29,189 bases of DNA. Origin: a virus. The position numbers were made by a program, and so were the translations under genes. The stretch spans positions 1 through 29,189 of IMG/VR virus record IMGVR_UViG_3300035698_015804. One strand, 5' to 3'. Each line of letters opens with the position of its first letter. Position 1 is the first letter of the stretch. Under the pieces are notes generated by a model. It was not told the DNA's origin. It saw only the letters and a program-made list of their open reading frames with translations, and made no database searches. Shown in pieces: positions 640 through 17,409 of the stretch.

Positions 640-1521
640 ATGAAAAAACTTAATTATAATTATGTAAAGGAACAAATAGAGAAAGAAGGATATCAATTAC
701 TTAGCAAAGAATATGTTAATAATAGAACCAAATTAAAAATACAATGTAGTAAAGGGCATAAATTTGAAATGCGATATTGTCATTTACAACAAGGACAAAA
801 ATGTCCAAATTGTAATAATGATAACATCAGACTTAGTTATGATTATGTAAAGGAACAAATAGAAAGTGTTGAAGGTTATAAATTATTGTCACCAACTTAT
901 AAAAATAGTAGGTCAAAAATAAAGGTACAATGTAGTAAAGGGCATATTTATAATGTTACTTATGGTAATTTTTATATGGGATATAGGTGTCCATATTGTG
1001 CGGGTATAAAATGCCATATATATGATTATGTAAAGGAACAAATAGAAAGTGTTGAAGGTTATAAATTATTGTCACCAACTTATAAAAATAGTAAAACCAA
1101 ATTAAAAATACGGTGTGGTAAAGGACATGAATATGAGGTTGTATATGGCAGTTTTCATAGTGGTAGAAGATGCCCATATTGTAATAAATTTAAAGGAACA
1201 TCAAAAGCAGAAAAAGAAATTGATGAAATGGTTAAGGAATTTCTACCTAATGAAAATATAATAGAGAATGACCGTACTCAAATAATTAATCCACGAACAG
1301 GACACAATCTTGAACTTGATGTATGGATACCTTCATTGAAGAAGGCAATTGAATATAATGGCATATATTGGCATTCAGGTAATTTAACAAAAGAAAAAGA
1401 TAAGGAAAAAATAAAACAATGCAAAGAAAAGGGTATAGAATTGTTAATTATAGAGGAAGAAGATTGGTATAGTAATAAAAATAATTGCATTGAATTATTA
1501 AAGGATTTTATAAATGACTAG
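640..1521 (+). CDS. Homing endonuclease: three zinc-ribbon repeats plus Vsr-like nuclease domain
   Basis: The protein has 293 residues. Residues 1-185 hold three repeats, each with a Y-x-YVKEQIE helix, a C-(S/G)-KGH half-site and a CP-x-C half-site, reading as zinc ribbons that probably bind DNA. The C-terminal 100 residues carry a very-short-patch-repair/DUF559-like nuclease core: LELDVWIPSLKKAIEYNG, then YWHS and later IELLIIEEEDW. Free-standing phage homing endonucleases of the Vsr-like (EDxHD) kind have this layout. Repeats two and three share an identical 73-bp DNA stretch. Its 3' end overlaps the ATG of the next gene by 8 bp. The start has only a weak GGGGG upstream. The class is well supported; the target site is unknown. 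Confidence 0.8.
   Translation: MKKLNYNYVKEQIEKEGYQLLSKEYVNNRTKLKIQCSKGHKFEMRYCHLQQGQKCPNCNNDNIRLSYDYVKEQIESVEGYKLLSPTYKNSRSKIKVQCSKGHIYNVTYGNFYMGYRCPYCAGIKCHIYDYVKEQIESVEGYKLLSPTYKNSKTKLKIRCGKGHEYEVVYGSFHSGRRCPYCNKFKGTSKAEKEIDEMVKEFLPNENIIENDRTQIINPRTGHNLELDVWIPSLKKAIEYNGIYWHSGNLTKEKDKEKIKQCKEKGIELLIIEEEDWYSNKNNCIELLKDFIND
838..1093 (+). repeat. Perfect 73-bp direct repeat inside the endonuclease gene
   Basis: Bases 838-910 and 1021-1093 read identically over 73 bp, 183 bp (61 codons) apart. They code for the start of zinc-ribbon repeats two and three. The first ribbon (from 655) is diverged, so one unit was duplicated recently or is kept uniform by recombination. Confidence 0.85.
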
Positions 1522-2248
1522 ACTGAAACATTATATAGATGAAGAACTTATAAATGAAAGTATTAATGATAAAGGTATCTTACATGCCTGTTTTTTATCT
1601 GGAATGAGTGGAAGCGGCAAATCGTATACAATCCAAAAAATTAAAGATGGTTCTATTGAGCCAAGAATTGTTAACACCGATAAAATGACAGAGCATTTAA
1701 AAGCTTATGATATTGATAAATGGATTGATGTTGAAGATATTGTAAAAAGAACTACAAAGAACCAGTTAGTTCTTTATCTTAATAGCTTATTACCATTATG
1801 GATTGATGGTACGTCTGCAAAACCCGCTTCTGTAATGAGAAGAAGTGGTATATTAAAATCAATAGGATATGATGTAAGTATGGTCTGGGTTACAGTATCT
1901 CTTGAGACTGCCTTAATTAGAACTAAAGAAAGATCTAAAACTGGTCGTGAAGTACCAGAAAAAATAGTTATTAAAATGTATAATCAATTACGAGGACTTA
2001 AAAAATATTATTCTACTGAATTTAATCATTTTACAGAAATTAAAAATGATGAAGGGGAACTTACTAATAAAGTTATATTACAAGCATATAAAAGGGAGAC
2101 GACATTTTTCAATTCTCCCGTTAAAAATCCTATAGGTATACATCAAATAAATAATATGAAGAAAAATGGTCATAAATATCTTATTGATACAAAAGAATAT
2201 GATAAGAAATATTTGGATAAATTAGTATCCAGTTGGTATAGGAAATAA
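1514..2248 (+). CDS. P-loop kinase (zeta-toxin/polynucleotide-kinase-like) with capsid-targeting-like N-terminus
   Basis: The protein has 244 residues. It opens MTRLKHYIDEELINE, a version of the peptide shared by many genes here, with possible (I)-x-E cleavage points at YIDE and LINE. A Walker A motif GMSGSGKS lies at about 30-37, followed by VNTDK (about 55-58) and an Arg-rich lid-like stretch RTKERSKTGREVP, as in AAA_33/zeta-type nucleotide and sugar kinases. The likely reaction is ATP-dependent phosphorylation of a small molecule, nucleic acid end or protein; the substrate cannot be read from sequence. It overlaps the endonuclease gene and is followed 4 bases later by an ART-like gene. If the leader is a capsid targeting sequence, the kinase would be packaged and injected. 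Confidence 0.7.
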   Translation: MTRLKHYIDEELINESINDKGILHACFLSGMSGSGKSYTIQKIKDGSIEPRIVNTDKMTEHLKAYDIDKWIDVEDIVKRTTKNQLVLYLNSLLPLWIDGTSAKPASVMRRSGILKSIGYDVSMVWVTVSLETALIRTKERSKTGREVPEKIVIKMYNQLRGLKKYYSTEFNHFTEIKNDEGELTNKVILQAYKRETTFFNSPVKNPIGIHQINNMKKNGHKYLIDTKEYDKKYLDKLVSSWYRK

Positions 2249-2252: not shown

Positions 2253-2867
2253 ATGACGAGACTACAACAATACCTTATAAATGAAGAGTTTCAAGATATC
2301 AATAAATTAGTTGCAATGCTTAAAGCTGATTGTAAGCCCTATCTATCATTACTCAAAAGAACTGATAAAATGTTATGTAGAGGTATTGACTCTCCTCCTA
2401 AAACTAATATTTATGAAAATGAAGTATATTATTTTAAAAGTAAACCTCGTAAAGATCGTAGACCATTAAGCACAGGACCGTTAGTACATAAGCAATTAGA
2501 TGATCTGTTCAAAAAGAAGTTCGGATGGAAAGCAAGGAGTGAAGGAGTGTTTGTAAGCTCTGATTATGGAACAGCATCAGGATATGGACATACTTATTTC
2601 TTTTTCCCTATAGGACAATTTAAGTATGTATGGTCTCCCAAGGTAGGGGACATATGGATATATCTTAAATCACATATAAGCAGTAGAAAAGGAAAGAGTG
2701 AACAACCAGATTTATCAGCAACAGTAGATTCATATATAGATAAAAGTTTAGTGAAGGCTATAGAATTGGAGCATGAAGTGGCAATTAAATGTAAAGAGTA
2801 CTATATGGTTGATGTGGAACTTGATGGAGAAACCTTTTCAAGAGTATTTAAGGATGCATTGCTATGA
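2253..2867 (+). CDS. ADP-ribosyltransferase-like protein with capsid-targeting-like N-terminus
   Basis: The protein has 204 residues and opens MTRLQQYLINEE. Beyond the leader it shows an Arg-Gly strand (LCRGID), then KPRKDRRP, FGWKARSEGVFVSSD with a following A-x-GYG, and a late ELEHEVAIKCKEYY. The order R-G, (S)-G-V-F-x-S...A..YG, E-x-E resembles the R-S-E layout of arginine-type mono-ADP-ribosyltransferases such as T4 Alt/Mod. It has a clear paralogue at 26730-27458, sharing RG, KPR-x-DR-x-P, FGW..RS.GVF, KYVW and KCKEY. Its stop overlaps the next start (ATGA). The fold call is an inference from motifs; host target unknown. Confidence 0.6.
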   Translation: MTRLQQYLINEEFQDINKLVAMLKADCKPYLSLLKRTDKMLCRGIDSPPKTNIYENEVYYFKSKPRKDRRPLSTGPLVHKQLDDLFKKKFGWKARSEGVFVSSDYGTASGYGHTYFFFPIGQFKYVWSPKVGDIWIYLKSHISSRKGKSEQPDLSATVDSYIDKSLVKAIELEHEVAIKCKEYYMVDVELDGETFSRVFKDALL

Positions 2868-3295
2868 GTAGATTCCAGAAATACCTTTTAAGAGAGTGGA
2901 AGGTAAATAAATCCTACTCAGGTAGAAGCATGATAAAACCTAATAGTACTATTTTATGGCAATATATACCTTCTAAAGGTCTTGTTTACACACTTTCTGA
3001 TGGCACTACATATGTCAATAACAAAAAGATAGGTAAGATGATACGCTCGGATTCTCCACAAGCTACTCATAAGAAGCAATTAGCATCCTTTTATAGTGAA
3101 TTGGGGTTTAAGGATAAGGACAAGAGGCAATACATAGAAGATATATATGAAACTTTTGTTAGAGGAAGGATAGTAGACAAGAACATTTATGTGTATTCTT
3201 CTGATTATGTTGGTATAGAGGCAAAAAAGTACAACAGAACTATGGATAAGGCAATTGATATGATTTATAAATATGTTGATGAGGATTATAATTAA
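2864..3295 (+). CDS. Targeting-peptide protein, family B (DxYxY C-terminus), unknown function
   Basis: The protein has 143 residues and opens MSRFQKYLLREW, with a possible L-R-E cleavage point. The body ends with a RGRI...IYVYSSDY strand pair and a helix MDKAIDMIYKYVDE. Genes at 5594 and 26329 share this plan: W near the middle, a GRI-x-(P/D)-(G/K)-R/N-x-I-(Y/F)-V strand, then DKAI-x-x-(V/I)-Y-(K/R)-Y at the end. It directly follows an ART-like gene with a 4-base overlap, as its paralogue at 26329 does on the other arm. No enzymatic motif is visible. Confidence 0.7.
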   Translation: MSRFQKYLLREWKVNKSYSGRSMIKPNSTILWQYIPSKGLVYTLSDGTTYVNNKKIGKMIRSDSPQATHKKQLASFYSELGFKDKDKRQYIEDIYETFVRGRIVDKNIYVYSSDYVGIEAKKYNRTMDKAIDMIYKYVDEDYN

Positions 3296-3296
3296 T

Positions 3297-4721
3297 ATGA
3301 GACTCCAGAGATATATAAATGAAGCAAAGGAACAACTAAAGCAATGGAAGGACTATGTGAGGTCTAACAAAATGCTCAAAGCAGCTGTTAAAATATTAGA
3401 AAAAATTAATAAGAAAGGATACAAAGCATATATAGTTGGTGGAACTGTCCGTGATATAATCCTTGGAGAAAAACCTCATGATGTTGATATTGCTACTAAT
3501 ATGCCTATACCCGAAATAGAAAAATTATATAAGACCTATGATATTGGTAAATCTAAGACATTTGGTATTGTTGTTGTTAAAGAAGGAGGTTATGATTTTG
3601 AGCTGGCTTTATTCAGGAATGACGGGAAATATTCTGATGGGAGGAGACCCGAATCTGTTATTGTTACTGGTTCGTTTGAGCAAGATGCTTCTCGTAGAGA
3701 TTTTACTATCAACGCTATGGGAATCAATGCGAAAGGTGAAATTTTGGATTACTTCGATGGTAAGAAGGATATTAAGAACAAGGTTTTAAGAACAGTTGGT
3801 AATCCACATGAACGATTTGGAGAAGATTACCTTAGGATGATGAGAGCACCGAGATTTGCTTCTAAACTTGGATTTGATATAGAGAAGGGTACTAAGAAAG
3901 CAATCAAGAAACTATCTAAAAATATTATTAAGTTATCCCCTGAACGCATAAAGGATGAGATAATGAAATCAGCTGCTCAATCAGGAGACAAGTTCGCTAA
4001 GTATATCATACAGTTGGATAAGTTAGGTATACTCAAACATATACTACCAGAGATAAAACAGTTACAATATAGTCCTGAAGATCTAACACACCATCCTGAA
4101 ACTATCGGTAAGGGCGGAAGTCCATTTGCTCATACTATGGAAGCACTTAAAGTTTCTAATACAAGAGAACCTTTGAAGAACCTTGCTATACTTTTACATG
4201 ATGTTGGAAAGGGTGTTACGTTTTCTGATACAACACCAGGTAAGATTTATACATATTATGGACATGATGCTGAAGGTGTAAAACTTATAGAGGAAATTGC
4301 TAAGAGATTGAAGATGTCTAATAAGGAAAGAGATACTTTATTATTTACAGCGGCTAACCATATGAAATTCCACCGTATGAAGGAGATGAAACCCTCTAAA
4401 ATATTCAAATTAGTTAATGATGATAATTGGGATGCATTAATTTCTGTAGCTATGGCTGATGAATTTTCAAGAGGAGAGAAGTTCATGAGTAAGAAGGATT
4501 TTGATGCCTCTTTAAAGGCTGCTATAAAGATAAAAGAGAAATGGGGTAAGAAGGAAGTTAAAAAGAGGATGAAACTTGTGGATGGTAATCATGTGATGGA
4601 ATTGTTGGGTATAGGTCCAGGTAAAAAGGTTGGAGAAGTGATAAGGAAAACAACTGAATGGATATTAGATATGGATATTTCAAAACAAGAAGAAATAGAT
4701 AAGTATATAAGGGGTATATAA
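3297..4721 (+). CDS. cca: CCA-adding tRNA nucleotidyltransferase with HD domain and capsid-targeting-like N-terminus
   Basis: The protein has 474 residues from the ATG at 3297. That start is chosen over a GTG/TTG-type start at 3273 because it gives the MRLQRYINEA leader shared with neighbours. The nucleotidyltransferase core is complete: VGGTVRD (about 47-53), HDVDIAT (61-67) with the two metal-binding Asp residues, RRDFTINAM (133-141), and EDYLRMMRAPRFASKLGF (176-193). An HD phosphohydrolase-type domain follows with HT at 279-280 and LLHDVGKG (299-306). This matches class II CCA-adding/poly(A) polymerase family proteins with a C-terminal HD domain. The usual role is repair or completion of tRNA 3' CCA ends. 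Fusion to the leader suggests delivery in the virion, where it could restore cleaved tRNAs. Confidence 0.88.
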   Translation: MRLQRYINEAKEQLKQWKDYVRSNKMLKAAVKILEKINKKGYKAYIVGGTVRDIILGEKPHDVDIATNMPIPEIEKLYKTYDIGKSKTFGIVVVKEGGYDFELALFRNDGKYSDGRRPESVIVTGSFEQDASRRDFTINAMGINAKGEILDYFDGKKDIKNKVLRTVGNPHERFGEDYLRMMRAPRFASKLGFDIEKGTKKAIKKLSKNIIKLSPERIKDEIMKSAAQSGDKFAKYIIQLDKLGILKHILPEIKQLQYSPEDLTHHPETIGKGGSPFAHTMEALKVSNTREPLKNLAILLHDVGKGVTFSDTTPGKIYTYYGHDAEGVKLIEEIAKRLKMSNKERDTLLFTAANHMKFHRMKEMKPSKIFKLVNDDNWDALISVAMADEFSRGEKFMSKKDFDASLKAAIKIKEKWGKKEVKKRMKLVDGNHVMELLGIGPGKKVGEVIRKTTEWILDMDISKQEEIDKYIRGI

Positions 4722-4767: not shown

Positions 4768-5103
4768 ATGAGTATACAAGAAAAAATAGAAAAATATTTG
4801 GTTAATGAAGGTAAAGATGAGTATAAATATGATACTATGTTAGCTGATAATATTGCTGATATTATTGAAACACATTTAAAAGGAAAAAACGCATATATTA
4901 AAGGTGAAAAACTTATCAAAAAGGAAATAAAAGAAGCTAAAAAAAGAACAGGATATAAAGGAAAAAATTGGAAAGAACTTTTACAAGATGCTGTAGATAA
5001 TCTTGAAATTATGTATGATTATGAAATACATGATGCACCTGTTAGTAGTAATAAAGGTAATAAAATATCTAATTTTATAGATATACTTGAGAAGATAAAA
5101 TGA
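4768..5103 (+). CDS. Small lysine-rich protein with diverged targeting peptide
   Basis: The protein has 111 residues and is strongly charged. It opens MSIQEKIEKYLVNEG, a longer, diverged form of the shared leader (Y-L-V-N-E in the right place). AAGGAGG at 4756-4762 is a strong ribosome binding site 5 bases before the ATG. The middle is Lys/Glu-rich and helical (KKEIKEAKKRTGYKGKNW). The stop overlaps the next ATGAGA start by 4 bases. I recognise no family. It could be a DNA-associated internal head protein, as many such proteins are small and basic. Confidence 0.6.
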   Translation: MSIQEKIEKYLVNEGKDEYKYDTMLADNIADIIETHLKGKNAYIKGEKLIKKEIKEAKKRTGYKGKNWKELLQDAVDNLEIMYDYEIHDAPVSSNKGNKISNFIDILEKIK

Positions 5104-5597
5104 GATTAGAACAGTATATAAATGAAGGTTCAGAAGAATTTTATGACATCTTAGCCTCCAACCACAAGAAATTTCATGAACACATGACCAGTATGGATGA
5201 AATGTTTGATAAGGATGTGAAGTTGGATAAACCAATGTGGGATGGTAAATATTTTACTGTAAAGTTCACTGTAGAAAATACCATATATACATTCAAAGCC
5301 ATGGAGAATGATAAAAATGAATATTCCATACTTTTTTACTCCTTCGACAAAAATTTATTTGACATAAAAGGTGATAAAAGATATGTAGGTGATGTGTTTT
5401 CAGGAGTTGTTAAATCATTACAAGCACTTATTAAAACAAGAAATGTGGAAATGTTTTGGTTTAACACTAATGAGCCTAAATTGATAAAACTATATGACAA
5501 GGTACTAAAGAAATTAGAAAGGAAGTTTAAAGGATATGAGTTTGATAAATCCTTAGTAGTTGATGATTACAAATTCTGGAGATTTGAGAAAAAATGA
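5100..5597 (+). CDS. Targeting-peptide protein, family C (DVFSGV motif), unknown function
   Basis: The protein has 165 residues and opens MRLEQYINEG. It shares MDEMFDKDV, an (A/F)-x-FKA strand, GDVFSGV and a basic C-terminal helix (LYDKVLKKLERKFKGY) with the gene at 6674, and more weakly with the gene at 24119 (SVMDGVAVVMKELI, then an IEYYIFA strand). The alternating beta-strands then helix then strand layout suggests a compact alpha/beta domain, but no catalytic signature is visible. It is linked to its neighbours by ATGA overlaps on both sides, so translation is probably coupled. Confidence 0.7.
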   Translation: MRLEQYINEGSEEFYDILASNHKKFHEHMTSMDEMFDKDVKLDKPMWDGKYFTVKFTVENTIYTFKAMENDKNEYSILFYSFDKNLFDIKGDKRYVGDVFSGVVKSLQALIKTRNVEMFWFNTNEPKLIKLYDKVLKKLERKFKGYEFDKSLVVDDYKFWRFEKK

Positions 5598-6013
5598 GAC
5601 TACAACAATACCTATTAAGAGAAGCAAGAGTAAGGAAGACAAATGCTGATGTCTTCTTAAATGATTACGCTCCTATTTTCATGTGGAGCCCTAAAGATGG
5701 ATTCTTATGGGCTGTATGGGATGAAGATGAGAGATGGATGCTATTTCATGGGTCAAAAAAATTGGAAAAAAGATTTGAATATACACATACTTCTTATACA
5801 CATCCCCAATTGTTAAATGCTTACAAGGGTAATGATAGGAACCTTGAAAAATTCATAACAGGAAGAATAAGCCCCGATGGAAGAACAATTTATGTGCATG
5901 ATTTCGGTAGTAGACCTTACCTTGCTGATACTATAACAACTATTCGTTATGATAAATATGTTGATAAAGCAATAGATAATGTTTATAGGTATATGAAGGG
6001 TTACATTAAATAA
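5594..6013 (+). CDS. Targeting-peptide protein, family B, unknown function
   Basis: The protein has 139 residues and opens MRLQQYLLREA. It is closest to the gene at 26329: both have A-R-V-(R/K)-x-TNA-(D/E)-(V/I)-FL, a (F/V)-(M/V)-W-S strand, (I)SGRI/ITGRI then G-R-T-I-(Y/F)-V, and a final Y-(R/K)-YM-(K/G)-GYI. The leader ends in L-R-E, a possible prohead protease site. The body seems to be a beta-rich domain with a C-terminal helix. It is a third member of the family after 2864 and 26329; function unknown. Confidence 0.7.
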   Translation: MRLQQYLLREARVRKTNADVFLNDYAPIFMWSPKDGFLWAVWDEDERWMLFHGSKKLEKRFEYTHTSYTHPQLLNAYKGNDRNLEKFITGRISPDGRTIYVHDFGSRPYLADTITTIRYDKYVDKAIDNVYRYMKGYIK

Positions 6014-6026: not shown

Positions 6027-6341
6027 ATGAAACTAAAACAATATTTGCTGAATGAAGAAAGACTGAGTGGTGGCGACAAGAAGACCCTAAAGGGGTATAT
6101 CAAAAATCCTAAAAAAGCTTCCTTCTTGTTAAGTTCATTTTCCAAGAATTATGATGAATCGGAAAGAGAAGTAGATGTTGAGAAATTGAAAGATGGGGTA
6201 GAATTTACTTATAATATGGATCACTATGAACTGACAAATGCTTTAGTCAATATGGTTGATAGTATGGATGAATATCAATTTAGTACCAGTGGTGAAAAAC
6301 AAACCAATACCATGTACTTCAAGGTATCGAAGGAAAAATAA
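6027..6341 (+). CDS. Targeting-peptide protein, unknown function
   Basis: The protein has 104 residues and opens MKLKQYLLNEER. AAGGAG at 6013-6018 supports the start at 6027. After the leader come GGDKKTLKGYIKNPKKA and an acidic/polar domain with alternating strands; it ends KVSKEK. It carries no motif I can name. It sits between a family B gene and a gene without leader, which starts immediately after its TAA. Confidence 0.65.
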   Translation: MKLKQYLLNEERLSGGDKKTLKGYIKNPKKASFLLSSFSKNYDESEREVDVEKLKDGVEFTYNMDHYELTNALVNMVDSMDEYQFSTSGEKQTNTMYFKVSKEK

Positions 6342-6677
6342 ATGAGTATAACCTATACACCAAAGGGCACTCCAGCGATGAAAATTGGAAATTATCAATT
6401 AACCTTAACTTCTACCAGTGGGGATAAGGAAAAATGGAAATGGTTAACTGTTTCTACTGGCAGTAATAGAGACATAGTACCATTTACTCTTCTTGGTCTA
6501 AAACAAAAGGTGGTACCTCTAAAGCTCAGGAATAGAATGAAGAAAGTATTTAAGAAGTATGTTGCTAAGGATGGGTTCATATACAAGAAAGATGTAGAGA
6601 AGTTATGCAATGATCTTAGTATAATGGATGAGAGTGTTACTAACCGTATGGATGATTTACTGGATTTATTACTATGA
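6342..6677 (+). CDS. Hypothetical protein without targeting peptide
   Basis: The protein has 111 residues and opens MSITYTPKGTP. It lacks the Q-x-Y-L-x-E leader, unlike nearly all neighbours. The N-terminal half reads as beta-strands (YQLTLTST, KWLTVST); the C-terminal half is basic and helical, ending in DDLLDLLL. It starts directly after the stop of the 6027 gene and its TGA overlaps the next ATG, so it is co-translated with the cluster. It may be a second subunit for the 6027 product or lie outside the packaged set. Confidence 0.6.
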   Translation: MSITYTPKGTPAMKIGNYQLTLTSTSGDKEKWKWLTVSTGSNRDIVPFTLLGLKQKVVPLKLRNRMKKVFKKYVAKDGFIYKKDVEKLCNDLSIMDESVTNRMDDLLDLLL

Positions 6678-7204
6678 AATTTCAACGATATATGGATGAA
6701 GATGGACATATTGAAATTTTAACAAGTTGGGAATATCAAAATCAACTTCATGGATTTAAATCATTAGAAGAAATGTTTGATAAAGATGTTGAATTTGGTA
6801 AAGTAACAAATACTAAAGAGTTATTGATGGTAAACTTCAGCACAAGTAACGATAAATGGGCATTCAAAGCTAGTAGGGTATTAGGAGAAGATGATATATA
6901 TGGTATTTTATTTAATAAAGTAGGAGATAAACCTGAAAATATGTTTAATCCAAAGGGTGGTAGTGATTATACTGGTGATGTGTTTAGTGGTGTGTTCAGA
7001 TGTATTGAAAAATTGATAAAGGATAGAAATAGAAATGTAAATGGTATAGCCTTTAAAACTGTTGATAGGAAGTTGTTATCATTATATAAGAGAATGTCAA
7101 AATGGGTAGAAAAGAGATTCCCGAATTTTGTGTTTCAAAAGGAATTACATAAAAAAAACTCTACTGAATTCGTATTTATGAGAAAGGGGATTGAGATTAG
7201 ATGA
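6674..7204 (+). CDS. Targeting-peptide protein, family C (DVFSGV motif), unknown function
   Basis: The protein has 176 residues and opens MKFQRYMDED, a diverged leader with M-D-E in place of L/I-x-E. It is a paralogue of the gene at 5100: EEMFDKDVEFGK, WAFKASR, YTGDVFSGV, then a basic helix (LYKRMSKWVEKRFPNF) and a closing strand FVFMRKG. No active-site signature is seen. The end overlaps the next gene by ATGA. Confidence 0.68.
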   Translation: MKFQRYMDEDGHIEILTSWEYQNQLHGFKSLEEMFDKDVEFGKVTNTKELLMVNFSTSNDKWAFKASRVLGEDDIYGILFNKVGDKPENMFNPKGGSDYTGDVFSGVFRCIEKLIKDRNRNVNGIAFKTVDRKLLSLYKRMSKWVEKRFPNFVFQKELHKKNSTEFVFMRKGIEIR

Positions 7205-7932
7205 GACTAAAACAATACTTGAATGAGAAAAGGATTCGTAGATTTAGGTTTAAAAAGCAGAAGAAACGTATTGATCCTATAGTGCGCATAAAGAAGGCTG
7301 AATCTATAGTAAAGAAAGGGTTAGTTAAACTTACTAAAGAATTAAGTAGTGTAGGATGGAGTATTGAGTTCTTTGATCTTCTAAAAATCATGAGTTCAGT
7401 ATGGAAAAGGGATCGTATAAAGTTTATTCCTGATGAAGGATTGGTTCGTATGAAAGAATTAAAAAACGCCAAGTATATGGATTCTGGTGATACTGATATA
7501 GATGGTGATATAGAATTACAAATTACTACAAGAATTATGGATTATATTTCTAAAGAGCAAAACAAGGAAAGTTTATCCAGTATAAAGAATGAGTTTGCAC
7601 AAGAATTTGTTAGAGTGTTGTCTCATGAATTAGTACATAGAGCACAATGGCAATCTTATGGTGAGATAGTACATAAAAGCATTCTTAAAAATAGAAAGGT
7701 CAAGGATAGTTATGTACAGTATAAAGAGTACCTGAAATCTCCTCACGAAATGATGGCATACGCACAAGATGCAGCATATGAAATTTTTCAAAACAGAGAG
7801 CCTGGTATATACTATTTATATCAATATTGGTTTGATGATGAGCCAGAAGTCTTTAAAAGCTTTGTAAAAATAATGAAGAAATCCTATAAGAAAATCAGTG
7901 ATGGGGAAGAGTTGATAATCGAGGTTAGATAA
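7201..7932 (+). CDS. Zincin metallopeptidase-like protein with capsid-targeting-like N-terminus
   Basis: The protein has 243 residues and opens MRLKQYLNEK, followed by a very basic stretch (RIRRFRFKKQKKR). A zinc-binding HELVH lies at 142-146 in the context VLSHELVHRAQW. A further conserved-looking Glu lies in SPHEMMAYA (E183), fitting the HExxH plus distant Glu arrangement of zincins. I infer a metal-dependent peptidase; it could instead be an inactive fold relative. In a packaged, injected protein such an enzyme could cut a host defence or regulatory protein. No signal peptide is present, so cytoplasmic action after injection is more likely than secretion. Confidence 0.72.
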   Translation: MRLKQYLNEKRIRRFRFKKQKKRIDPIVRIKKAESIVKKGLVKLTKELSSVGWSIEFFDLLKIMSSVWKRDRIKFIPDEGLVRMKELKNAKYMDSGDTDIDGDIELQITTRIMDYISKEQNKESLSSIKNEFAQEFVRVLSHELVHRAQWQSYGEIVHKSILKNRKVKDSYVQYKEYLKSPHEMMAYAQDAAYEIFQNREPGIYYLYQYWFDDEPEVFKSFVKIMKKSYKKISDGEELIIEVR

Positions 7933-7934: not shown

Positions 7935-8249
7935 ATGAGATTTTTACAATACTTAAATGAAGAATTGTTTACAACAGGACAAACAGATACATGGGATAGT
8001 AAAAAATTTAAACCTCTTGAAGTTTTTATAAATCCTTCTAGAAGTGAATTAAGAGGAATATCAAAGCATGTTAGATATGTAATTGATAATAAAACTAAAA
8101 CACTTTATGCATGGAATGGTACATGGGCATTACATTCTGATGTATGGAAAAATATTCTAAAGAAGAAACTTAAAGATAGTAGAAATTTTGATGATGTTAC
8201 ATTAAGGCGTAGTAGTTATGCTACTGGTGATCGTTATCCTAATAGATAA
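7935..8249 (+). CDS. Targeting-peptide protein, last gene of the left cluster
   Basis: The protein has 104 residues and opens MRFLQYLNEELF. The body has a RYVIDNKTKTLYAWNGTWALHSDVW stretch that looks like two or three strands with Trp residues, then a Lys-rich helix. The strand text is reminiscent of family B (a W-containing hairpin), but the match is too weak to join them. It is the final plus-strand gene before the convergent uvsW gene; only 13 bases separate the two stops and no strong terminator hairpin is visible. Confidence 0.65.
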   Translation: MRFLQYLNEELFTTGQTDTWDSKKFKPLEVFINPSRSELRGISKHVRYVIDNKTKTLYAWNGTWALHSDVWKNILKKKLKDSRNFDDVTLRRSSYATGDRYPNR

Positions 8250-8262: not shown

Positions 8263-9693
8263 TCATAATTCTATTCTGTTACCCTCCTCTAACAATATTT
8301 CCTCAGTTTCAAATCCTTCAGAACCGTAATAACGAAACCTTACATTACCATGCTTGTTCAAGTATTTGGTGTGATCATGAATATCGAATATAATAGCACC
8401 TTCCTTCTTGTTAGCATGCTTCCTCAAAGCCCTACCTATACTTTGTAACACCCTTATCTTACTCATAAAAGGGCTCCCAAACACTATATACTTCAAATTA
8501 GGAATATTTATACCTTGTGCAAAAATGCCGTAGGTGGCAATCAGTATGATATCCTTACGTTTCATACACCTTTTACGCCATTTCTCCCTTTCTTCCACAT
8601 TATCCTTACCAGATAGGAACACAATTTCCTTTTTAGTTACCCCTTTAAGCCAATCCTTTAAGTAGTCTCCTTCCTTTTCTACTTTACCCACAAGTATAAG
8701 GACATTATGATCTAAAGAATTAACAATACTCTTAATCACATTCAACCTATAGTCATTAGTAAAAACAAAATCCTTAACTTCATTGTAATCTCCCTCAAAT
8801 TGGTTCTGATATTCAATATTGATAACCTTTACCGTGCATTTAGCTATGTAACCCTCTTCAGCAAGGAAGCCTGAGCTATAATCAGCAATTACAGGTCCTA
8901 AGTAGCTTAATGTATTGAGTAAATCTAATTTACCTTGATGAAGTGTGCCTGTAAAACCTAAACGATAATTGGCTAAACTATTAACTAAGATCTTTTTTAA
9001 GGAATGGGATTTCACTGAATGTGCCTCATCACATATAACACAATCATATAATTTTAGTTTATTGGGATTTTTAATTAATGTCTGCCACGTCGATATTACT
9101 ATGTTCTTATCCCATTCTTTAGCCTTTGCATACACCTTTCCTATAGAATACCTTTCACTCATTCCGTATTCTTCCATATCATTATAGAATTGCTCTACTA
9201 AAGATTTATTAGGGACTATAATGATGGACTGTTTTGCCTTTTTGTTTTCTAAAAGGGTTTTGAGGACATAAGCAATCACTAAACTTTTACCAGACGCAGT
9301 TGCCGATCTAATTATACCCTTAGTATACTTGAGGGATTTTTGGATGCAGTCCAATTGGAATGGGTAGGGTTTCAAGGAAAGGTCTTGTTTGATTTTGAGA
9401 GAAGGACCTTTGAATATAGATTTGACATCATCATCCATTACTAATGTTATACGGGGAAATGTTGTTTTGTTTACCCTCATAATTTCTGTAAGAAGCCCAT
9501 AAGGTAAAGAATTATCAGCTCTTATTAAACAGGTCTTACCATCCCAACCTCCAGATTTGAAAGCAGGCATCCAGTTATACCCATCAACGAGATAGGTAAA
9601 CTCTTTTTTGAGTAATTTTAAATAATCTTCATCTTCTGATTGAATCTGAATGTTAAGAAGGTCCCTACGGACTATATGAACTATGTTATCCAC
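8263..9693 (-). CDS. uvsW: UvsW-type superfamily 2 DNA helicase
   Basis: The protein has 476 residues from a GTG start at 9693, with AAAGGGA upstream. SF2 motifs are in order: Q-like FQLDCIQ (about 112), Walker A ATASGKS (131-137), DEAH (222-225), FTGT for motif III, ILIATYGIFAQGINIP, and motif VI QSIGRALRK. An N-terminal domain of about 100 residues precedes the helicase core, as in T4 UvsW. UvsW unwinds R-loops and branched DNA and switches T4 from origin- to recombination-dependent replication. Its neighbour two genes upstream looks like UvsY, which supports the assignment. Confidence 0.9.
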   Translation of the reverse strand: MDNIVHIVRRDLLNIQIQSEDEDYLKLLKKEFTYLVDGYNWMPAFKSGGWDGKTCLIRADNSLPYGLLTEIMRVNKTTFPRITLVMDDDVKSIFKGPSLKIKQDLSLKPYPFQLDCIQKSLKYTKGIIRSATASGKSLVIAYVLKTLLENKKAKQSIIIVPNKSLVEQFYNDMEEYGMSERYSIGKVYAKAKEWDKNIVISTWQTLIKNPNKLKLYDCVICDEAHSVKSHSLKKILVNSLANYRLGFTGTLHQGKLDLLNTLSYLGPVIADYSSGFLAEEGYIAKCTVKVINIEYQNQFEGDYNEVKDFVFTNDYRLNVIKSIVNSLDHNVLILVGKVEKEGDYLKDWLKGVTKKEIVFLSGKDNVEEREKWRKRCMKRKDIILIATYGIFAQGINIPNLKYIVFGSPFMSKIRVLQSIGRALRKHANKKEGAIIFDIHDHTKYLNKHGNVRFRYYGSEGFETEEILLEEGNRIEL

Positions 9694-9728
9694 TTACAAT
9701 CCCTTTCTTTCATTCTGTCCAAATTCTT

Positions 9729-10319
9729 TCATGTTACTATATGTTTCCAATTTTTACCATATTTTATACTACCTATTGTTGTTTTGGCTACATTATAAAT
9801 CTTAGAAATTTCCATATTTCCTTCACCTTTTTGTAATCTTTTCTTAATTTCTATAACTTCCTTTTCTGTAAGTTTAACAAGAGGATGTTTCTCTCCTACT
9901 CTACCATAACAAGGATTGTATATACCCTTTACATTAGCATGATTTTCTTTCATTTTTTTTATTGTTTTTTCGGAATGTTTTTTACCATACATAGGATTGT
10001 TTTTTCCTATATTATCATTTCCTCCCCAGGTAAGATTATATCCATTTTCAGTTTTAAAACTATGATATTGCTTTATATAATGGAATTCCATTTCATCTAA
10101 TTCTTCCTTAGATGAACATTCTTCAAGTATTTCCCATTCAAAATTTTCTTTCCCATACTTATTAAGAGCATTATGAAAATATATATTGTTATATTTAAGT
10201 GATTCTCTTAAATGTTCTAATTTCCTTTTATGTAAACCCTGAATAGTCTGACCTATATAGCATTTACGATTAATTTTATTAGTTGATTTATAAATTATTC
10301 CTAAAGGTTTTTCTTTCAT
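9729..10319 (-). CDS. GIY-YIG homing endonuclease with C-terminal DNA-binding repeats
   Basis: The protein has 196 residues from the ATG at 10319, chosen because AAGGAGC (10329-10335) sits 9 bases before it; a longer reading to 10403 has no such site. GIIY (7-10) and CYIGQT (20-25) form the GIY-YIG signature, followed by KRKLEHLRES and a Glu-rich EWEILEECSSKEELDEME region. NPMYGKKHSEKTIKKM and GEKHPLVKLTEKEVIEIKKR resemble NUMOD-type DNA-binding repeats, then a helix-turn-helix (MEISKIYNVAKTTIGSIK). It lies between uvsY and uvsW, the kind of recombination-gene site such selfish genes invade. Confidence 0.87.
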   Translation of the reverse strand: MKEKPLGIIYKSTNKINRKCYIGQTIQGLHKRKLEHLRESLKYNNIYFHNALNKYGKENFEWEILEECSSKEELDEMEFHYIKQYHSFKTENGYNLTWGGNDNIGKNNPMYGKKHSEKTIKKMKENHANVKGIYNPCYGRVGEKHPLVKLTEKEVIEIKKRLQKGEGNMEISKIYNVAKTTIGSIKYGKNWKHIVT

Positions 10320-10363
10320 TTTGATATAGCTCCTTATATAAATAGAATTGTATGGAGGGACAA

Positions 10364-10385
10364 TTTGGTAGATAGCTCCACCAAA
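10364..10385 (-). other. Hairpin in the leader of the GIY-YIG gene
   Basis: TTTGGT at 10364-10369 pairs with ACCAAA at 10380-10385 around a 10-base loop that contains a GGAGC copy on the minus strand. It lies about 45 bases upstream of the endonuclease start and could shape translation of its mRNA. Stem is only 6 bp, so support is modest. Confidence 0.35.
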
Positions 10386-10428
10386 CCGGATAAGTGGTAC
10401 CAAGCACCTATCCTTACCTTCATATATC

Positions 10429-10436
10429 TATTTATA
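10429..10436 (-). promoter_or_regulatory. T4-type late promoter box TATAAATA
   Basis: The minus strand reads TATAAATA exactly, the T4 late promoter -10 consensus recognised by the gp55 sigma factor. It lies in the uvsY to endonuclease gap, outside coding sequence, about 110 bases upstream of the endonuclease ATG. T4 homing endonuclease genes are often put under late promoters, so this fits. The box is short and AT-rich, so chance cannot be excluded. Confidence 0.5.
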
Positions 10437-10454
10437 TTTTTAAGCTAAAATTAT

Positions 10455-10871
10455 TCATATTCCTCTCCTTTCATTTTCGGAAAATACTTTAATATTCCAA
10501 CCCATTTGTTTCAATCCAGACATACACATTTGAAAAAATTCCACTTTTACCTTCTGTTTCCTTAATATACCTTTCATTTGCTTTACTTTCTTATCTTTTG
10601 GGAGATAATACTTTTCAATTTCTGTCTTTGTTAAACCTCTATCTTCATCAAATCTATAGTGATCATAACACTCTCCAGCAAGCACTTCCATTAACTCTTC
10701 CAGTTTTTCATATGCCATTTTCTCTCTGTTGTATAAATCTTGGTATTTTATTACCTGGAAAGCATTTTCTTTTAGCTTCTCCTGAAGGTCTAATTCATTA
10801 AAAGACACCATCTCCAATATGGGATGTTCTTTCATCAATTCTCTTAATATTACTTCTCTCTCATCTTCCAT
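10455..10871 (-). CDS. uvsY: UvsY-like recombination mediator
   Basis: The protein has 138 residues, matching T4 UvsY (137). It is helical, with a DLQEKL opening, LYNREKMAYEKLEELMEVL, and the region YRFDEDRGLTKTEIEKYYLPKDKKVKQM that parallels the UvsY Y-x-R/F-D...M-x-x-x-E-x-x...D-K-x-V segment; the C-terminal FFQMCMSGLKQMGWNIK corresponds to the UvsY LDFCSGALDAIKSRGF helix. UvsY loads the UvsX recombinase onto gp32-covered single-stranded DNA. UvsX is not in this window. No Shine-Dalgarno site precedes the ATG and the -10 box lies 6 bases upstream, so the mRNA may be leaderless. Confidence 0.75.
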   Translation of the reverse strand: MEDEREVILRELMKEHPILEMVSFNELDLQEKLKENAFQVIKYQDLYNREKMAYEKLEELMEVLAGECYDHYRFDEDRGLTKTEIEKYYLPKDKKVKQMKGILRKQKVKVEFFQMCMSGLKQMGWNIKVFSENERRGI

Positions 10872-10877
10872 TTACAT

Positions 10878-10906
10878 AATATAACACATTCGTACAGTAT
10901 TGTAAA
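10878..10906 (-). promoter_or_regulatory. Sigma-70-like promoter for uvsY
   Basis: On the minus strand, TTTACA (10906-10901) and TATATT (10883-10878) are 17 bp apart. Transcription would begin close to base 10871, the A of the uvsY ATG. The -35 lies inside the palindrome at 10900-10918. Confidence 0.6.
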
Positions 10907-10918
10907 CTTGATTTACAA
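10900..10918. promoter_or_regulatory. 19-bp palindrome covering both divergent -35 boxes (operator candidate)
   Basis: TTGTAAA and TTTACAA form perfect 7-bp arms around CTTGA. The left arm contains the -35 of the minus-strand promoter and the right arm the -35 of the plus-strand promoter. A dimeric repressor or activator bound here would control both directions at once. The symmetry partly follows from both promoters using TTTACA, but the arms extend beyond it. Confidence 0.5.
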
Positions 10919-10940
10919 CTTCAGAATTTTAGTGTATAAT
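10912..10940 (+). promoter_or_regulatory. Sigma-70-like promoter for the plus-strand replication block
   Basis: TTTACA (10912-10917), a 17-bp spacer and a perfect TATAAT (10935-10940). This is a strong host-type promoter ahead of the gene at 10978 and probably of the long plus-strand operon behind it. Confidence 0.7.
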
Positions 10941-10977
10941 AATTGTATGAATATTTATGAAAGGAGTGTTGATAGTG

Positions 10978-11346
10978 ATGATGGAATTGGAATTGGAATG
11001 TTACGCTGTAATTAGGAAAGGTAATAAATGGTCATTAGGGAAGATTGAAGGCTTAGAATTCATATCTCATAAGAAGATAAAAAAATTAGGTGATGTAAAA
11101 GATGTGTCCTCATATGTTTCCCTCAAAAAATATTTGGCTGACAATGAAATGGATGCTTCATTAGAGGGATTTATATTAAAAGAGATGGAATGTGATAGTA
11201 TGTATATTCTAACAAGTGAAAAATCATATGAATGGGATAAGAATTGGTGGAAGGAGTACAATGCTGAATGTATGAAATGTTCTAAGGACTGCAAACAAAG
11301 TTATTTAGCCGATATATGGAGTTGTAAAGATTATGACGGAGAGTAA
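10978..11346 (+). CDS. Cysteine-containing hypothetical protein, first gene of the plus-strand block
   Basis: The protein has 122 residues from the ATG at 10978. AAGGAG (10961-10966) lies 11 bases upstream, so GTG at 10975 or ATG at 10981 are also possible. The earlier ATG at 10957 would place that site inside the gene. The N-terminal part reads as a small alpha/beta domain; the C-terminus carries C-x-x-C-x-x-x-C and another Cys (NAECMKCSKDC, WSC), which may bind metal. Its position directly behind the strong promoter suggests early expression. No family recognised. Confidence 0.6.
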   Translation: MMELELECYAVIRKGNKWSLGKIEGLEFISHKKIKKLGDVKDVSSYVSLKKYLADNEMDASLEGFILKEMECDSMYILTSEKSYEWDKNWWKEYNAECMKCSKDCKQSYLADIWSCKDYDGE

Positions 11347-11662
11347 AATTACAGAATATCCAAATGGTGATAAAAAATGGTACTTAAATGGTAAACTTCA
11401 TAGAACAGATGGTCCTGCTATAGAATGTATTAATGGTGATAAGGAATGGTACTTGAATGGTGAACATCATAGAGGAGACGGACTTCCCGCTATAGAATAT
11501 ATAGATAGTACTAAAATATGGTGCCTGAATAATGAACTTCATAGGGAAGATGGCCCTGCTATAGAATATGCTAATGGTGATAAAAGATGGTTCCTAAATG
11601 GTAAACCAGTAACGCAAAACGAAGTAGAATGGAATGCTATAAAGGACTTATTTGTGCTATGA
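11333..11662 (+). CDS. MORN-like repeat protein
   Basis: The protein has 109 residues and four repeats of about 24 residues of the form NGDK-x-WYLNG-(K/E)-x-HR-x-DGPAIE, a W/Y-x-NG beta-hairpin repeat seen in many phage and giant-virus proteins and akin to MORN repeats. The C-terminus ends the array with KRWFLNGKPVTQNEVEW. It overlaps the previous gene by 14 bases and the helicase gene by 4. MORN-like repeats bind lipids or proteins in other settings; here the function is unknown. Confidence 0.75.
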   Translation: MTESKITEYPNGDKKWYLNGKLHRTDGPAIECINGDKEWYLNGEHHRGDGLPAIEYIDSTKIWCLNNELHREDGPAIEYANGDKRWFLNGKPVTQNEVEWNAIKDLFVL

Positions 11663-13059
11663 TAGAAAAGAATTTAGATAGTGATTTCCTTGAGAAACTT
11701 ATGATCAAGGCTATGTTAGTGGACAAAAGGTTCCTTGCCATATGTTCTTCTGTGTTTGAACCTGAATACTTTGATAATTCCTCCGCTTCTGCAATATTCA
11801 AATACACTTCCGACTACTTAGAAGAATATAATGGTATACCAGAAATGCTATCCATAATAAATTCCACTAAAGATGGTGATAGACAAGAGATAAAGGATTT
11901 TCTATCTGATGTGAATTCTGTTGATTTTAATATATCTAAGAATTATGATTTTCTATTCACCCAAACTAATGGATACCTTAAAGTCCAATCATTAAAAAAA
12001 GCAATCATGGATTCTGTTAATATTATTGATGAGGGTTCTGATGTAGAAGCTATAAGAGAAAAAATTGAAAATGCTCTATCTAAAGACCTTAAAATAGATT
12101 TGGGTTTGAAATATTTTGAGGATTTAGGGGAGCGTTTAAGAAGAATATTTACAGCAAGTAACATAAGGGTGCCCACATTTTTTCCTGTTTTTGATGAATT
12201 TATTTCAGGGGGGTTTCCACCATTCACATTATCAGTTTTGGTTGCTCGTATACATGGATTTAAGTCAAACCTACTAGCCAATTTTGCTACCCGCCAAGTA
12301 TTACATGGTAAGAATGTAGTACTCATGACCCTTGAAATGGCACAAGATGCTTTCGCTCAAAGGTTTGACTCAATTTATTCCTTATCTGATATCAATAGAA
12401 TGTATGTATCTGATGCGTATAAGATAAAATTAACCAAGGCTCTAAAGGAAGTAAAGGCAACGGAAGGAAGAGGTGAATTATTCATTAAGCAATTCCCTAC
12501 TGGTGATGCTTCCGTGAGAGATTTTAAAACATACCTAAGAGAGTTACTGATAAGGGATATAAAGCCTGATATTTTGATGTGTGATTATATAAATCTTATG
12601 AAACCCGCAATGAAAGGTAATGAGGGTATATATTCTTCTGTTAAAAGGATAGCGGAAGAACTTCGTGCTCTAAGTTTTGAATTTGAAGTTCCCGTTTTAT
12701 CAGTAAGTCAATTAAACAGAGAGGGAGGGTTTGTAGGATTTGAAGAATTGAGTTTTAATTATATAGCAGAATCATTAGGATTACCGGCAACAGCGGATTT
12801 TATGGCTATAATGGGTGTTGATGAGGATAGTTTAGTATATGAATCTGAACTGCATGGAAAGATAGTAAAGAATAGACTTGGAGGTAGAGTGGGGGAAAGG
12901 TTTACTATGTATTACGATTCTAGAACTCTAAAGATGTGGGATGAGTCGGAACTTAATGATTGGATTTTAGCAGGGGGAAAATCTGGAGATGAAAGAAATT
13001 TATTTGAGCCAGGAGAAAGAGGAAGGCAAACAAACGGAAGGAGAAGAAATGCCAATTAA
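11659..13059 (+). CDS. DnaB/gp41-type replicative DNA helicase
   Basis: The protein has 466 residues from the ATG at 11659, which overlaps the upstream stop (ATGA); T4 gp41 has 475. An N-terminal helical domain is followed by the RecA-like ATPase: GGFPPFTLSVLVARIHGFKS in the Walker A place, VVLMTLEMAQDAFAQR with the conserved Glu, Walker B ILMCDYINLM, and VLSVSQLNREGGFVG. It should unwind the lagging-strand template 5' to 3' at the fork together with primase. The Walker A is odd: ARIHGFKS keeps Lys-Ser but lacks the usual G before K and the first Gly. Primase is not in the window. Confidence 0.85.
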   Translation: MIEKNLDSDFLEKLMIKAMLVDKRFLAICSSVFEPEYFDNSSASAIFKYTSDYLEEYNGIPEMLSIINSTKDGDRQEIKDFLSDVNSVDFNISKNYDFLFTQTNGYLKVQSLKKAIMDSVNIIDEGSDVEAIREKIENALSKDLKIDLGLKYFEDLGERLRRIFTASNIRVPTFFPVFDEFISGGFPPFTLSVLVARIHGFKSNLLANFATRQVLHGKNVVLMTLEMAQDAFAQRFDSIYSLSDINRMYVSDAYKIKLTKALKEVKATEGRGELFIKQFPTGDASVRDFKTYLRELLIRDIKPDILMCDYINLMKPAMKGNEGIYSSVKRIAEELRALSFEFEVPVLSVSQLNREGGFVGFEELSFNYIAESLGLPATADFMAIMGVDEDSLVYESELHGKIVKNRLGGRVGERFTMYYDSRTLKMWDESELNDWILAGGKSGDERNLFEPGERGRQTNGRRRNAN

Positions 13060-13213
13060 AAAGGTAATAGGTGCTCTTTTATTAATGATGACCTTGGTAA
13101 TAGCTAATTCATGGTTGTTTATTGTATTGGGTTTTGGTGCTCTTGTTCATCTTTATAGTATATTATTGGTGATTTTCATGGGAGTAGTTGGAATATATTG
13201 GTTATTCTCATGA
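13049..13213 (+). CDS. Small two-helix membrane protein
   Basis: The protein has 54 residues from the ATG at 13049, inside the 3' end of the helicase gene and preceded by AGGAGA. It opens MPIKKVIG, then two hydrophobic segments fill the rest (about 6-26 and 30-52). It is followed by a 4-base overlap with the Mom-like gene. Possible roles are inner-membrane association or a holin-like function, but nothing in the sequence decides. Confidence 0.6.
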   Translation: MPIKKVIGALLLMMTLVIANSWLFIVLGFGALVHLYSILLVIFMGVVGIYWLFS

Positions 13214-13872
13214 AAGAAACTAATCAAACATATGTAGATGTTTCCAGAGTCAATGTGTTTCCTATAACTTGTAAGGATGCTAAACCTATAATAGTTAATA
13301 ATCATTACTCTCATAAATGGACTTCTTGTAGGTATGCTTATGGTGTTTATTATGATGAAATATTGATAGGTTGTGTTGTGTATGGCCCACCTGTAGGAAG
13401 ACAAGTAGTTGATTCCATTACCAAAACAATACCTTTAGAAAGAAAAGGAGTTATGGAGCTTACTCGTCTTTGGGTAGCTGATGGTTATGGTACTAATATT
13501 GAGTCTTATAGCATAGGTCAGACCTTCAAATATCTAAGAAAGGGAGGTATAAAGGTAATAATATCATATGCTGACCCTAATGTAGGGCATCTTGGTAAAA
13601 TATATCAAGCAACAAATTTTATATATCAAGGTAATCAAATAATGTTGGTAACGGCATACAAGTTTACAGTTAAAGGAGAAGTTCTACATCCAAGAACAGT
13701 GGTTGCTCGTTATGGAAGTATAAAGGATGTGGTATTGAGAGAAGTCGATCCCAATTACACAAAGAAAGAGGATTTAAGGAAGCATCGTTACATTTATATA
13801 TTGGCAGGTAAGAAGGAAAGAAAGGCTATAATAGATGATCTTAAACATGAAAAGAAGGAGTATGTAAAATGA
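13210..13872 (+). CDS. Mom-like DNA adenine modification protein (GNAT fold)
   Basis: The protein has 220 residues from the ATG at 13210 (ATGA overlap with the upstream stop). The pattern follows phage Mu Mom and its relatives: IIVNNHYS (about 27-34), GVYYDEILIGCVVYGPP, ELTRLWVADGYGTNIES (83-99), VIISYADPNVGHLGKIYQAT (116-135) and NFIYQG. Mom converts adenine in DNA to N6-carbamoylmethyl-adenine, protecting phage DNA against many restriction enzymes. No Com-like zinc-finger regulator is seen next to it. The fold assignment is strong; the exact chemical modification is inferred from the family. Confidence 0.82.
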   Translation: MKETNQTYVDVSRVNVFPITCKDAKPIIVNNHYSHKWTSCRYAYGVYYDEILIGCVVYGPPVGRQVVDSITKTIPLERKGVMELTRLWVADGYGTNIESYSIGQTFKYLRKGGIKVIISYADPNVGHLGKIYQATNFIYQGNQIMLVTAYKFTVKGEVLHPRTVVARYGSIKDVVLREVDPNYTKKEDLRKHRYIYILAGKKERKAIIDDLKHEKKEYVK

Positions 13873-14030
13873 AGTTTAAATATTTAGTGTTAGGGAATCA
13901 TCCTATATCGAAATATGTTAATAAGAGATGTTTAACGGGAGAAGAAGCAAATAATGTAAAGAATGAATTAGTAGCTATAGGATATGAAGTCATAATAGAA
14001 ACTATAAAGGAGGAGAACAATGAAAGATAA
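13869..14030 (+). CDS. Short hypothetical protein
   Basis: The protein has 53 residues, opening MKFKYLVLGNHPISKYV. It overlaps the Mom-like gene by 4 bases and the next gene by 11, and is preceded by AAGAAGGAG, so it fits the operon pattern and is very probably translated. Beta-alpha layout with a final strand (YEVIIETIKEE). No family recognised. Confidence 0.6.
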   Translation: MKFKYLVLGNHPISKYVNKRCLTGEEANNVKNELVAIGYEVIIETIKEENNER

Positions 14031-14379: not shown

Positions 14380-14396
14380 AAGAGGGGGTTTGCAAT

Positions 14397-15622: not shown

Positions 15623-15803
15623 TAATGGTTCTTTTATTGTATTTGGAGTATTTATAGGTGCCTTTCTAATGTTTATTCTGTTGGCTGCTTTAGGAGATAC
15701 TTATAAGAATGGTCAAATAGATGCTTTGAGTGATACAGTTAAATATGAGTTGGTTAAACAAGACAATGATAGTGTTCAATGGCAAAGAATAGGGGATAAG
15801 TAA
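15615..15803 (+). CDS. Single-pass membrane protein
   Basis: The protein has 62 residues from the ATG at 15615. AAGGAGG at 15599-15605 is 9 bases upstream, which decides for this start over the earlier in-frame TTG. A hydrophobic helix spans about residues 5-28 (FIVFGVFIGAFLMFILLAAL), followed by a polar C-terminal tail. Function unknown. Confidence 0.6.
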   Translation: MTDNGSFIVFGVFIGAFLMFILLAALGDTYKNGQIDALSDTVKYELVKQDNDSVQWQRIGDK

Positions 15804-15815
15804 AGGGGGTTTATT

Positions 15816-16031: not shown

Positions 16032-16053
16032 AACTTTTGAGGAAAGAGTAGAA

Positions 16054-17408: not shown

Positions 17409-17409
17409 A

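Follow-up and report, generated by a model that had tools for sequence, protein, structure and literature searches.

The first ten residues of the internal protein IPIII of phage T4 suffice for head loading, residues 4 and 7 mattering for targeting and residues 8 and 10 for processing (PMC9026906, sections available to us). In phage P1, an N-terminal signal puts the anti-restriction protein DarB into the head, and the N-termini of the Dar proteins have no consensus among them according to the available text (PMC9024508). For RNA ends, cREC, HAD and kinase-type domains as well as CCA enzymes have been assigned to RNA repair against host nucleases (PMC7824862, available part). The toxSAS enzymes pyrophosphorylate the CCA end of tRNA, which is reversed by a hydrolase of Salmonella phage SSU5 (PMC11559606, available part), and MenT toxins are reported to extend tRNA acceptor ends.

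CCA-adding enzymes of phages include gp031 of RaK2, gp18 of Atu_ph07 and CB7_179 (PMC3622015, PMC6102473 and PMC7344957, each in its available text). CB7_179 is mentioned once in the main text available for CB7, outside the virion MS table (PMC7344957). Among the titles and abstracts listed in searches of the open literature, none reported a CCA enzyme in virions, and in the published descriptions that we found, phage tRNA repair is made after infection. The CCA-adding enzyme described here begins with a leader that resembles the T4 head-loading tag, which raises the possibility that a preformed enzyme for tRNA repair enters the cell together with the phage DNA.

The window and its CCA-adding enzyme

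The stretch of DNA analysed (the window) is the complete IMG/VR record IMGVR_UViG_3300035698_015804, 29,189 bases of AT-rich DNA from an uncultured phage. Its family B DNA polymerase, for which the best matches in the phage collection were mostly T4-like cyanophages and a Pelagibacter phage at about 30% identity, belongs to a replication/metabolism block at 8263..23408, together with ClpP and others. On three short contigs with three other sample numbers (L012, L013, L015), the DNA polymerase is 100% identical to that of the window over the matched part, which indicates that the phage recurs. Homing-endonuclease-like ORFs were noted at 640-1521 (+), 9729-10403 (-) and 16807-17160 (+), two of them GIY-YIG-like by eye and one matching CapR, treble-clef and, weakly, REase_MTES_1575. 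A low-complexity ORF at 22067-22498 (+) carries EGYxxGxExGHEE repeats, and the right end of the record (28808-29189) is low-complexity and repetitive.

The sequence-only reading of this DNA had claimed a complete nucleotidyltransferase plus HD protein beginning with MRLQRYINEA, and this was borne out. The ORF at 3297..4721 (+, 474 aa) is intact, with domains over the Pfam cut-offs (PolyA_pol 3.8e-33, PolyA_pol_RNAbd 7.9e-14, HD 2.9e-05) and a further match, tRNA_NucTran2_2, under its cut-off (7.1e-04). The nucleotidyltransferase head domain, with GGxVRD, DxD and RRDxxxN, occupies 3426..3791 (+; PF01743, residues 44-165), the RNA-binding neck domain 3870..4058 (+; PF12627, residues 192-254) and the HD domain 4182..4400 (+; PF01966, residues 296-368). 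GGxVRD, DxD, RRDxxxN and EDxxR, the motifs of class II CCA-adding enzymes, are all present and unchanged in 11/11 aligned rows, and H279, H301-D302, H323, H355 and D388 of the HD region, some of them just beyond the Pfam stretch, are likewise invariant in 11/11.

The best NCBIfam match was CCA tRNA nucleotidyltransferase NF009814, strong but, with 268 bits against a cut-off of 290, short of the equivalog threshold; PHROG 2244 (tRNA nucleotidyltransferase) matched at 2e-80. The AlphaFold2 model reached a pLDDT of 86.3, with residues 1-10 (mean pLDDT 55) and 111-120 among the least certain, and was used for a Foldseek search, which returned 46 matches at E<=0.001, the CCA-adding enzymes 1miv and 6qxn being the best (1miv 7.3e-18; E about 1e-17). 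By its motifs and modelled fold, the product belongs to the class II CCA-adding enzymes and carries an HD domain; CCA addition is its predicted activity. The start codon was placed at ATG 3297, one base past the stop of the previous gene and with a Shine-Dalgarno-like GAGGA, read directly from the sequence (3281..3285, +), 11 nt upstream. The longest frame opens earlier, at ATG 3273; homologues begin at the place corresponding to ATG 3297.

The leader peptide in the window and in relatives

The leader of the CCA enzyme, MRLQRYINE (3297..3323, +), has a predicted prohead-protease cut after E9 (INE|A), based on the leader pattern and the comparison with T4 IPIII. Leaders were counted with the pattern M(x0-3)[RK][LFM]xx[YWF][LIM]x(1-2)E; the patterns were composed after the sequences had been seen, and shuffles and cross-record exclusivity served as controls. 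In the window, 15 of the 51 non-overlapping ORFs of at least 60 aa carry the pattern, the CCA enzyme and fourteen others, whereas shuffling residues 2-40 of each ORF in 2000 rounds gave 0.022 on average and never more than 2; the core pattern has 0 occurrences in 8339 internal residues. All 15 genes lie in two islands, 1514-8249 (+) and 23405-27982 (-), and none of the 25 ORFs of the replication/metabolism block between them has a leader (hypergeometric 2.4e-6). Over 114 leader ORFs of the clade, distinct in their first 60 residues, the consensus is [RK][LF]xxY[IL]NE.

In the left island (all +), the CCA gene is accompanied by a P-loop kinase, polynucleotide-kinase-like or zeta-like by Pfam and PHROG (1514..2248, MTRLKHYIDE), and by a protein of the LYRG family of alignment A6 (2253..2867, MTRLQQYLINE), of which Atu_ph07 gp53-gp63 are members. 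Further leader proteins, assigned by the pattern, are encoded at 2864..3295 (MSRFQKYLLRE; by eye resembling those at 5594 and 26329), 5100..5597 (MRLEQYINE), 5594..6013 (MRLQQYLLRE), 6027..6341 (MKLKQYLLNE), 6674..7204 (MKFQRYMDE), 7201..7932 (MRLKQYLNE) and 7935..8249 (MRFLQYLNE). The protein at 7201..7932 has an HELVH motif and is metalloprotease-like by eye only, with no Pfam match at E 0.01. The right island (all -) encodes leader proteins at 23405..23698 (MKHKLEHYILDE), 23688..24119 (MGRLQDWLNE), 26329..26733 (MRFQQYLLGE) and 27455..27982 (MMSRLQKYINE), and a second LYRG family protein, assigned by alignment A6 and leader pattern, at 26730..27458 (MRLQQYINE).

Two side questions on these genes were followed. 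For the LYRG family (2253, 26730), the R47 and E214 columns gave a hint, by eye, of an ADP-ribosyltransferase, which we do not claim; the AlphaFold2 model had a pLDDT of 70 and no Foldseek match at E<=0.001, and a second structural comparison gave Arr at Z 4.5 and rmsd 4.5 over 96 residues, amid unrelated rows. A T4-type late promoter, TATAAATA, as the driver of the leader genes was dropped, because it was not clearly enriched in the window or over 90 leader genes. It was present upstream of 5/90 leader genes over seven record sets (3.05 expected) and, in the window, ahead of 1/15 (0.58 expected), with 13 sites overall compared with 8.7 expected; one copy ends 23 bases ahead of the CCA start.

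Among relatives, records were removed before counting where the CCA protein was the same as in another record (G003 as G002, G032 as G033) or belonged to the L011 lineage (L007, L008, L009). A leader is present on 17 of the 18 distinct CCA enzyme members, window included: 11 are strict, five are variants of the form MxFxx[FY]Y..E as judged by eye (MRFEKYYFQE, MRFKEFYIFKE, MRFDDFYEFAVYMNE, MRFSTFYTTHFLLE and MDFRRFYLFE), and one, in G035, is of an unrelated class, MxxAxx[IL][IL]xx[LI]xE. The remaining enzyme, that of G028, has none, and the capsid locus of G028 (L065) has a leader-like gene. Three distant CCA homologues (31-33% identity) are without the leader. The G035 class was found on 11/37 ORFs of G035 (shuffle mean 0.073, maximum 2), one of which (8896) is a piece of a capsid gene and probably a chance match, and on 0/51 window ORFs; conversely, the window leader is on 0/37 ORFs of G035. 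The CCA enzyme thus wears the leader in use in its own phage.

In the L011 lineage, the CCA gene is split after the neck, and both halves (276 aa, MRLENYLNEN; 250 aa, MRLMNFINEQ) begin with strict leaders. L008 is identical to the L011 split, L007 shows a single residue difference, and on L009 the first 253 residues lie at a contig end; the four may represent one phage population. A tentative reading, part of the repair-module proposal given below, is that the address is strongly selected, both halves having kept or gained a leader after the CCA gene broke.

Split phage CCA genes were observed in five lineages (L011 10001-11580, L078 9995-12500, L010 8712-11104, L215 4772-6258, L217 6067-7623), in four of them at a shared HPE(T/G) junction ahead of the HD domain, and in one (G009, L010) near residue 111. 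A short tail, YVRKIIE-like or TVQKIIYD, closes the first pieces, whereas starts that resemble KLGPKxxYDPxNPEHxDPxKY are found on the second pieces. The junction peptides of L011, L078 and L010 differ at synonymous sites and therefore look conserved as protein. An endonuclease-like ORF lies between the pieces in L010 (GIY-YIG-like) and L078, and Rfam found no intron between the CCA pieces. Perhaps homing endonucleases left these genes in pieces, together with a pair of junction peptides that is portable.

Capsid loci and isolate phages

The T4 ipIII product, read directly, begins MKTYQEFIAEA, and L3, Y6, I7 and E9 of the window leader are spaced as residues 4, 7, 8 and 10 of IPIII, one residue closer to the start. 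All 24 gp23-type capsid loci in relatives (20 distinct N-termini) show [LIF]xE with A, S or T as the next residue, in an alignment by eye with FLTE|A, the cut position of T4 gp23; the corresponding site of the Atu_ph07 capsid protein is LME|N. In L045, L050, L052, L056 and L057, small genes whose leaders are of the MSFxxYLxE type form clusters (two to five genes each) no more than 10 kb away from the capsid gene, as judged with a loose pattern used without a shuffle control, which had at least one match at 18/24 capsid loci, several apparently by chance, and none at 6/24. In G009, a 264-kb record that holds both protease and capsid genes, a leader pattern is matched by 8/434 ORFs, compared with 0.5 after shuffling.

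Neither the window nor any of the strict-leader relatives searched, all of which are fragments, had a match to the T4-type protease and capsid families. Both families were over the cut-off in G009 and G038, and in G035 the capsid was over and the protease under it. For the capsid genes of the window clade, the matches from MCP scans and family searches were confined to other relatives; on L181, from the same sample as G033, an MCP match of 58 residues is not attributable to the G033 phage. As side observations, the 205-kb record G038 has two gp23-type capsid matches (C1:175352-176563 and 13987-15258), and the major capsid gene of G035 is in pieces with a group I intron between them (RF00028, 82.6 bits; L101 11366-11620, -) and an adjoining GIY-YIG-like ORF.

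Among isolates, a LYRG-family leader protein of the clade matched Agrobacterium phage Atu_ph07 at five places (query residues 1-256 in two pieces, 26.6% identity). The products of eleven consecutive Atu_ph07 genes, gp53-gp63, open with xxLxE preceded by M[RK]W or MRL, and [LVI]YRG is present in each of them. For this phage, 131 virion proteins were detected by MS, 29 of them within CDS 31-76, of which two were predicted to be structural (PMC6102473, available text). The genes gp53-gp63 sit inside this cluster rich in virion proteins, which is a statement on their location and not on their detection; the gene numbering was verified via gp18, the tRNA nucleotidyltransferase (PMC6102473, available text). 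Tandem arrays of LYRG-family leader genes were seen in Atu_ph07 (eleven; L199 11626-22734) and in G033 (about eight, by profile search; L115 4544-13503).

The CCA enzyme of Atu_ph07 itself, gp18, has no leader and is encoded outside CDS 31-76, which, together with the leaderless enzyme of G028, indicates that packaging is not general. A leader was absent from the CCA enzyme N-termini of all six isolates inspected (PcCB7V, GAP31, RHph_I1_18, Vibrio D181, Tunturi_5 and Atu_ph07), PcCB7V being a genus-mate of CB7, and the homologue in Salicola phage SCTP-2 is without a recognisable leader.

The sequence-only reading had the CCA enzyme addressed to the capsid. In favour of this are the spacing shared with the T4 capsid targeting sequence, the [LIF]xE sites of relatives, the lineage-matched leaders, the two leaders of the split enzyme and the Atu_ph07 cluster; against it stands that the clade's own capsid genes were not found. 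On the sequences and their analysis, we consider it likely that the leader is a capsid address and, with slightly less confidence, probable that this CCA enzyme is packaged in heads.

Putative repair proteins, proposed mechanism and alternatives

For a survey of further leader-bearing cargo, 103 of the 114 leader ORFs were scanned with Pfam, after removal of eight further copies or first halves of the CCA enzyme and of three near-copies from L070. Six P-loop kinases, three cREC cyclic-phosphate domains and two 5'-nucleotidases (HAD) were found, and one or two each of NUDIX, ATP-grasp and peptidase folds. In alignment A4 of these 103 proteins, RimK ATP-grasp, C39 peptidase, Zn-protease, NUDIX and amidoligase domains were noted, a diverse set of possible injected effectors. 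The cREC genes have a leader in G001, G002, G019 and G040 and none in G009 and G022.

The kinase at 1514-2248 had been placed two genes upstream of the CCA gene, with the same leader. The leader is present; the position is three genes upstream, since two other leader genes intervene. It matched polynucleotide kinase phrog_505 (9.2e-12) and AAA_33 (2.6e-09) but, over the cut-off, also Zeta_toxin (2.7e-08), and its best PHROG was 12810 (4.4e-20), which is without function. The suggested end-healing step is one candidate role for it. RNA ligases of PF09414, found in six records of the window clade (five distinct: G010, G019, G031, G032/G033 and G034; G019 below the cut-off), carry no leader, so that a complete cut-and-seal kit in the capsid is unsupported and restoration of 3' ends is the better reading.

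Immediate repair of tRNA ends had also been proposed, and it is as repair rather than maturation, without the full kit, that the proposal is favoured. The tRNA genes of three relatives mostly encode CCA (G031 24/25, G033 34/36, G009 43/48; T4, by the same reading, 4/8). The enzyme would therefore be unneeded to finish most of the phages' own tRNAs, which disfavours their maturation as its task and points to the repair of damaged ends. This argument rests on G031, G033 and G009, because no tRNA gene was found in the window or in the near fragments scanned.

The mechanism that we propose is as follows. The leader MRLxxY[IL]NE would be a capsid-targeting propeptide of the T4 internal-protein type, docking its cargo in the prohead core during head assembly, whereupon the prohead protease would cut past the glutamate ([LI]xE|). 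The CCA-adding/HD enzyme would be one such cargo, ejected along with the DNA, and would at once restore or clean tRNA 3' CCA ends, whether of the host or of the phage, before phage gene expression, with the nucleotidyltransferase re-adding C, C and A, and the HD domain possibly removing 2',3'-cyclic, 3'- or pyro-phosphates. To this whole chain of leader address, virion delivery and immediate tRNA 3'-end repair, in which cleavage, packaging, ejection, activity and anti-defence role are predicted steps, we assign a probability of roughly 57%. A wider proposal is more tentative, and we would put it somewhat below even odds: that an uncultured T4-superfamily lineage packs a tRNA 3'-end repair module (CCA/HD, in some members with cREC, HAD nucleotidase and polynucleotide-kinase-like proteins) under the same cleavable leader, injected to undo acceptor-end damage (CCA pyrophosphorylation, extension or trimming, for example) ahead of any phage transcription.

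The leader could be a capsid address while the enzyme works in the producing cell, or rides along, and serves ordinary late tRNA maturation or repair. Many phages encode CCA enzymes (matches were found in 460 of 50,697 phage records), the six isolate enzymes are leaderless, and the literature speaks of maturation or repair enzymes, packaging being unmentioned in the available text of PMC7824862 and PMC3622015. Such a role fits poorly with tRNA genes that already encode CCA, and a passenger would hardly be expected to have a leader in 17 of the 18 members and on each half of the split enzyme, so that we regard this explanation as unlikely. Alternatively, the leader could be a tag of another kind, directing proteins to a scaffold, membrane, compartment or partner in the infected cell, with nothing packaged. 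The evidence for packaging is indirect, the protease and capsid matches are absent from the window and the strict-leader relatives (fragments), and late-promoter enrichment is not clear, all of which this explanation would accommodate; the agreement with the T4 spacing and with the [LIF]xE sites of head proteins, the leader genes adjoining capsid genes in some relatives and the position of the Atu_ph07 family members within the virion-protein-rich cluster argue against it and make it improbable.

The protein might instead be a poly(A) polymerase or another RNA-tailing enzyme, as the head domain is common to both, PcnB of NCBIfam (TIGR01942) matched with 175 bits (cut-off 306), and all CCA equivalogs stayed under their cut-offs. 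The higher score of NF009814, the match to PHROG 2244 and the best Foldseek hits, 1miv and 6qxn, favour CCA addition, and we hold a tailing enzyme to be very improbable.

A virion-borne CCA-adding enzyme would shift the translation counter-defence to the time at which the DNA enters the cell. Candidate injected proteins of uncultured phages could then be listed from sequence alone, by a rule that combines a lineage-specific leader with [LI]xE and that could be tested on existing virion proteomes, e.g. that of Atu_ph07.

Compared with known systems, the enzyme is probably a new cargo for a known targeting principle, the parts being known and the combination new as far as our search of the open literature shows. 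With the capsid targeting sequence of T4 IPI-IPIII, which is cleaved by gp21, the leader shares an N-terminal propeptide of about ten residues, the aromatic/hydrophobic spacing, [LI]xE and its occurrence on otherwise unrelated proteins. It differs in being one residue shorter, in usually starting with M(R/K)(L/F) and in occurring on 15 ORFs within 29 kb, including a 474-aa RNA enzyme, with packaging and cleavage here predicted. DarB of P1 likewise has an N-terminal head-loading signal, but its cargo counters DNA restriction, whereas here it is a tRNA enzyme. The CCA enzymes of jumbo and other phages (PHROG 2244; RaK2 gp031, Atu_ph07 gp18, CB7_179) belong to the same family as that of the window, but in five of the six isolate enzymes the GG motif is preceded by 6 to 32 residues, compared with 47 in the window. 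With T4 Pnkp/Rnl1 and the RNA repair sets of jumbo phages (cREC, HAD, RNA ligase), the leader proteins of the clade have domain types in common, namely P-loop kinases, HAD nucleotidases and cREC; as a difference, the PF09414 RNA ligases here are leaderless, so that only end processing would be delivered in advance.
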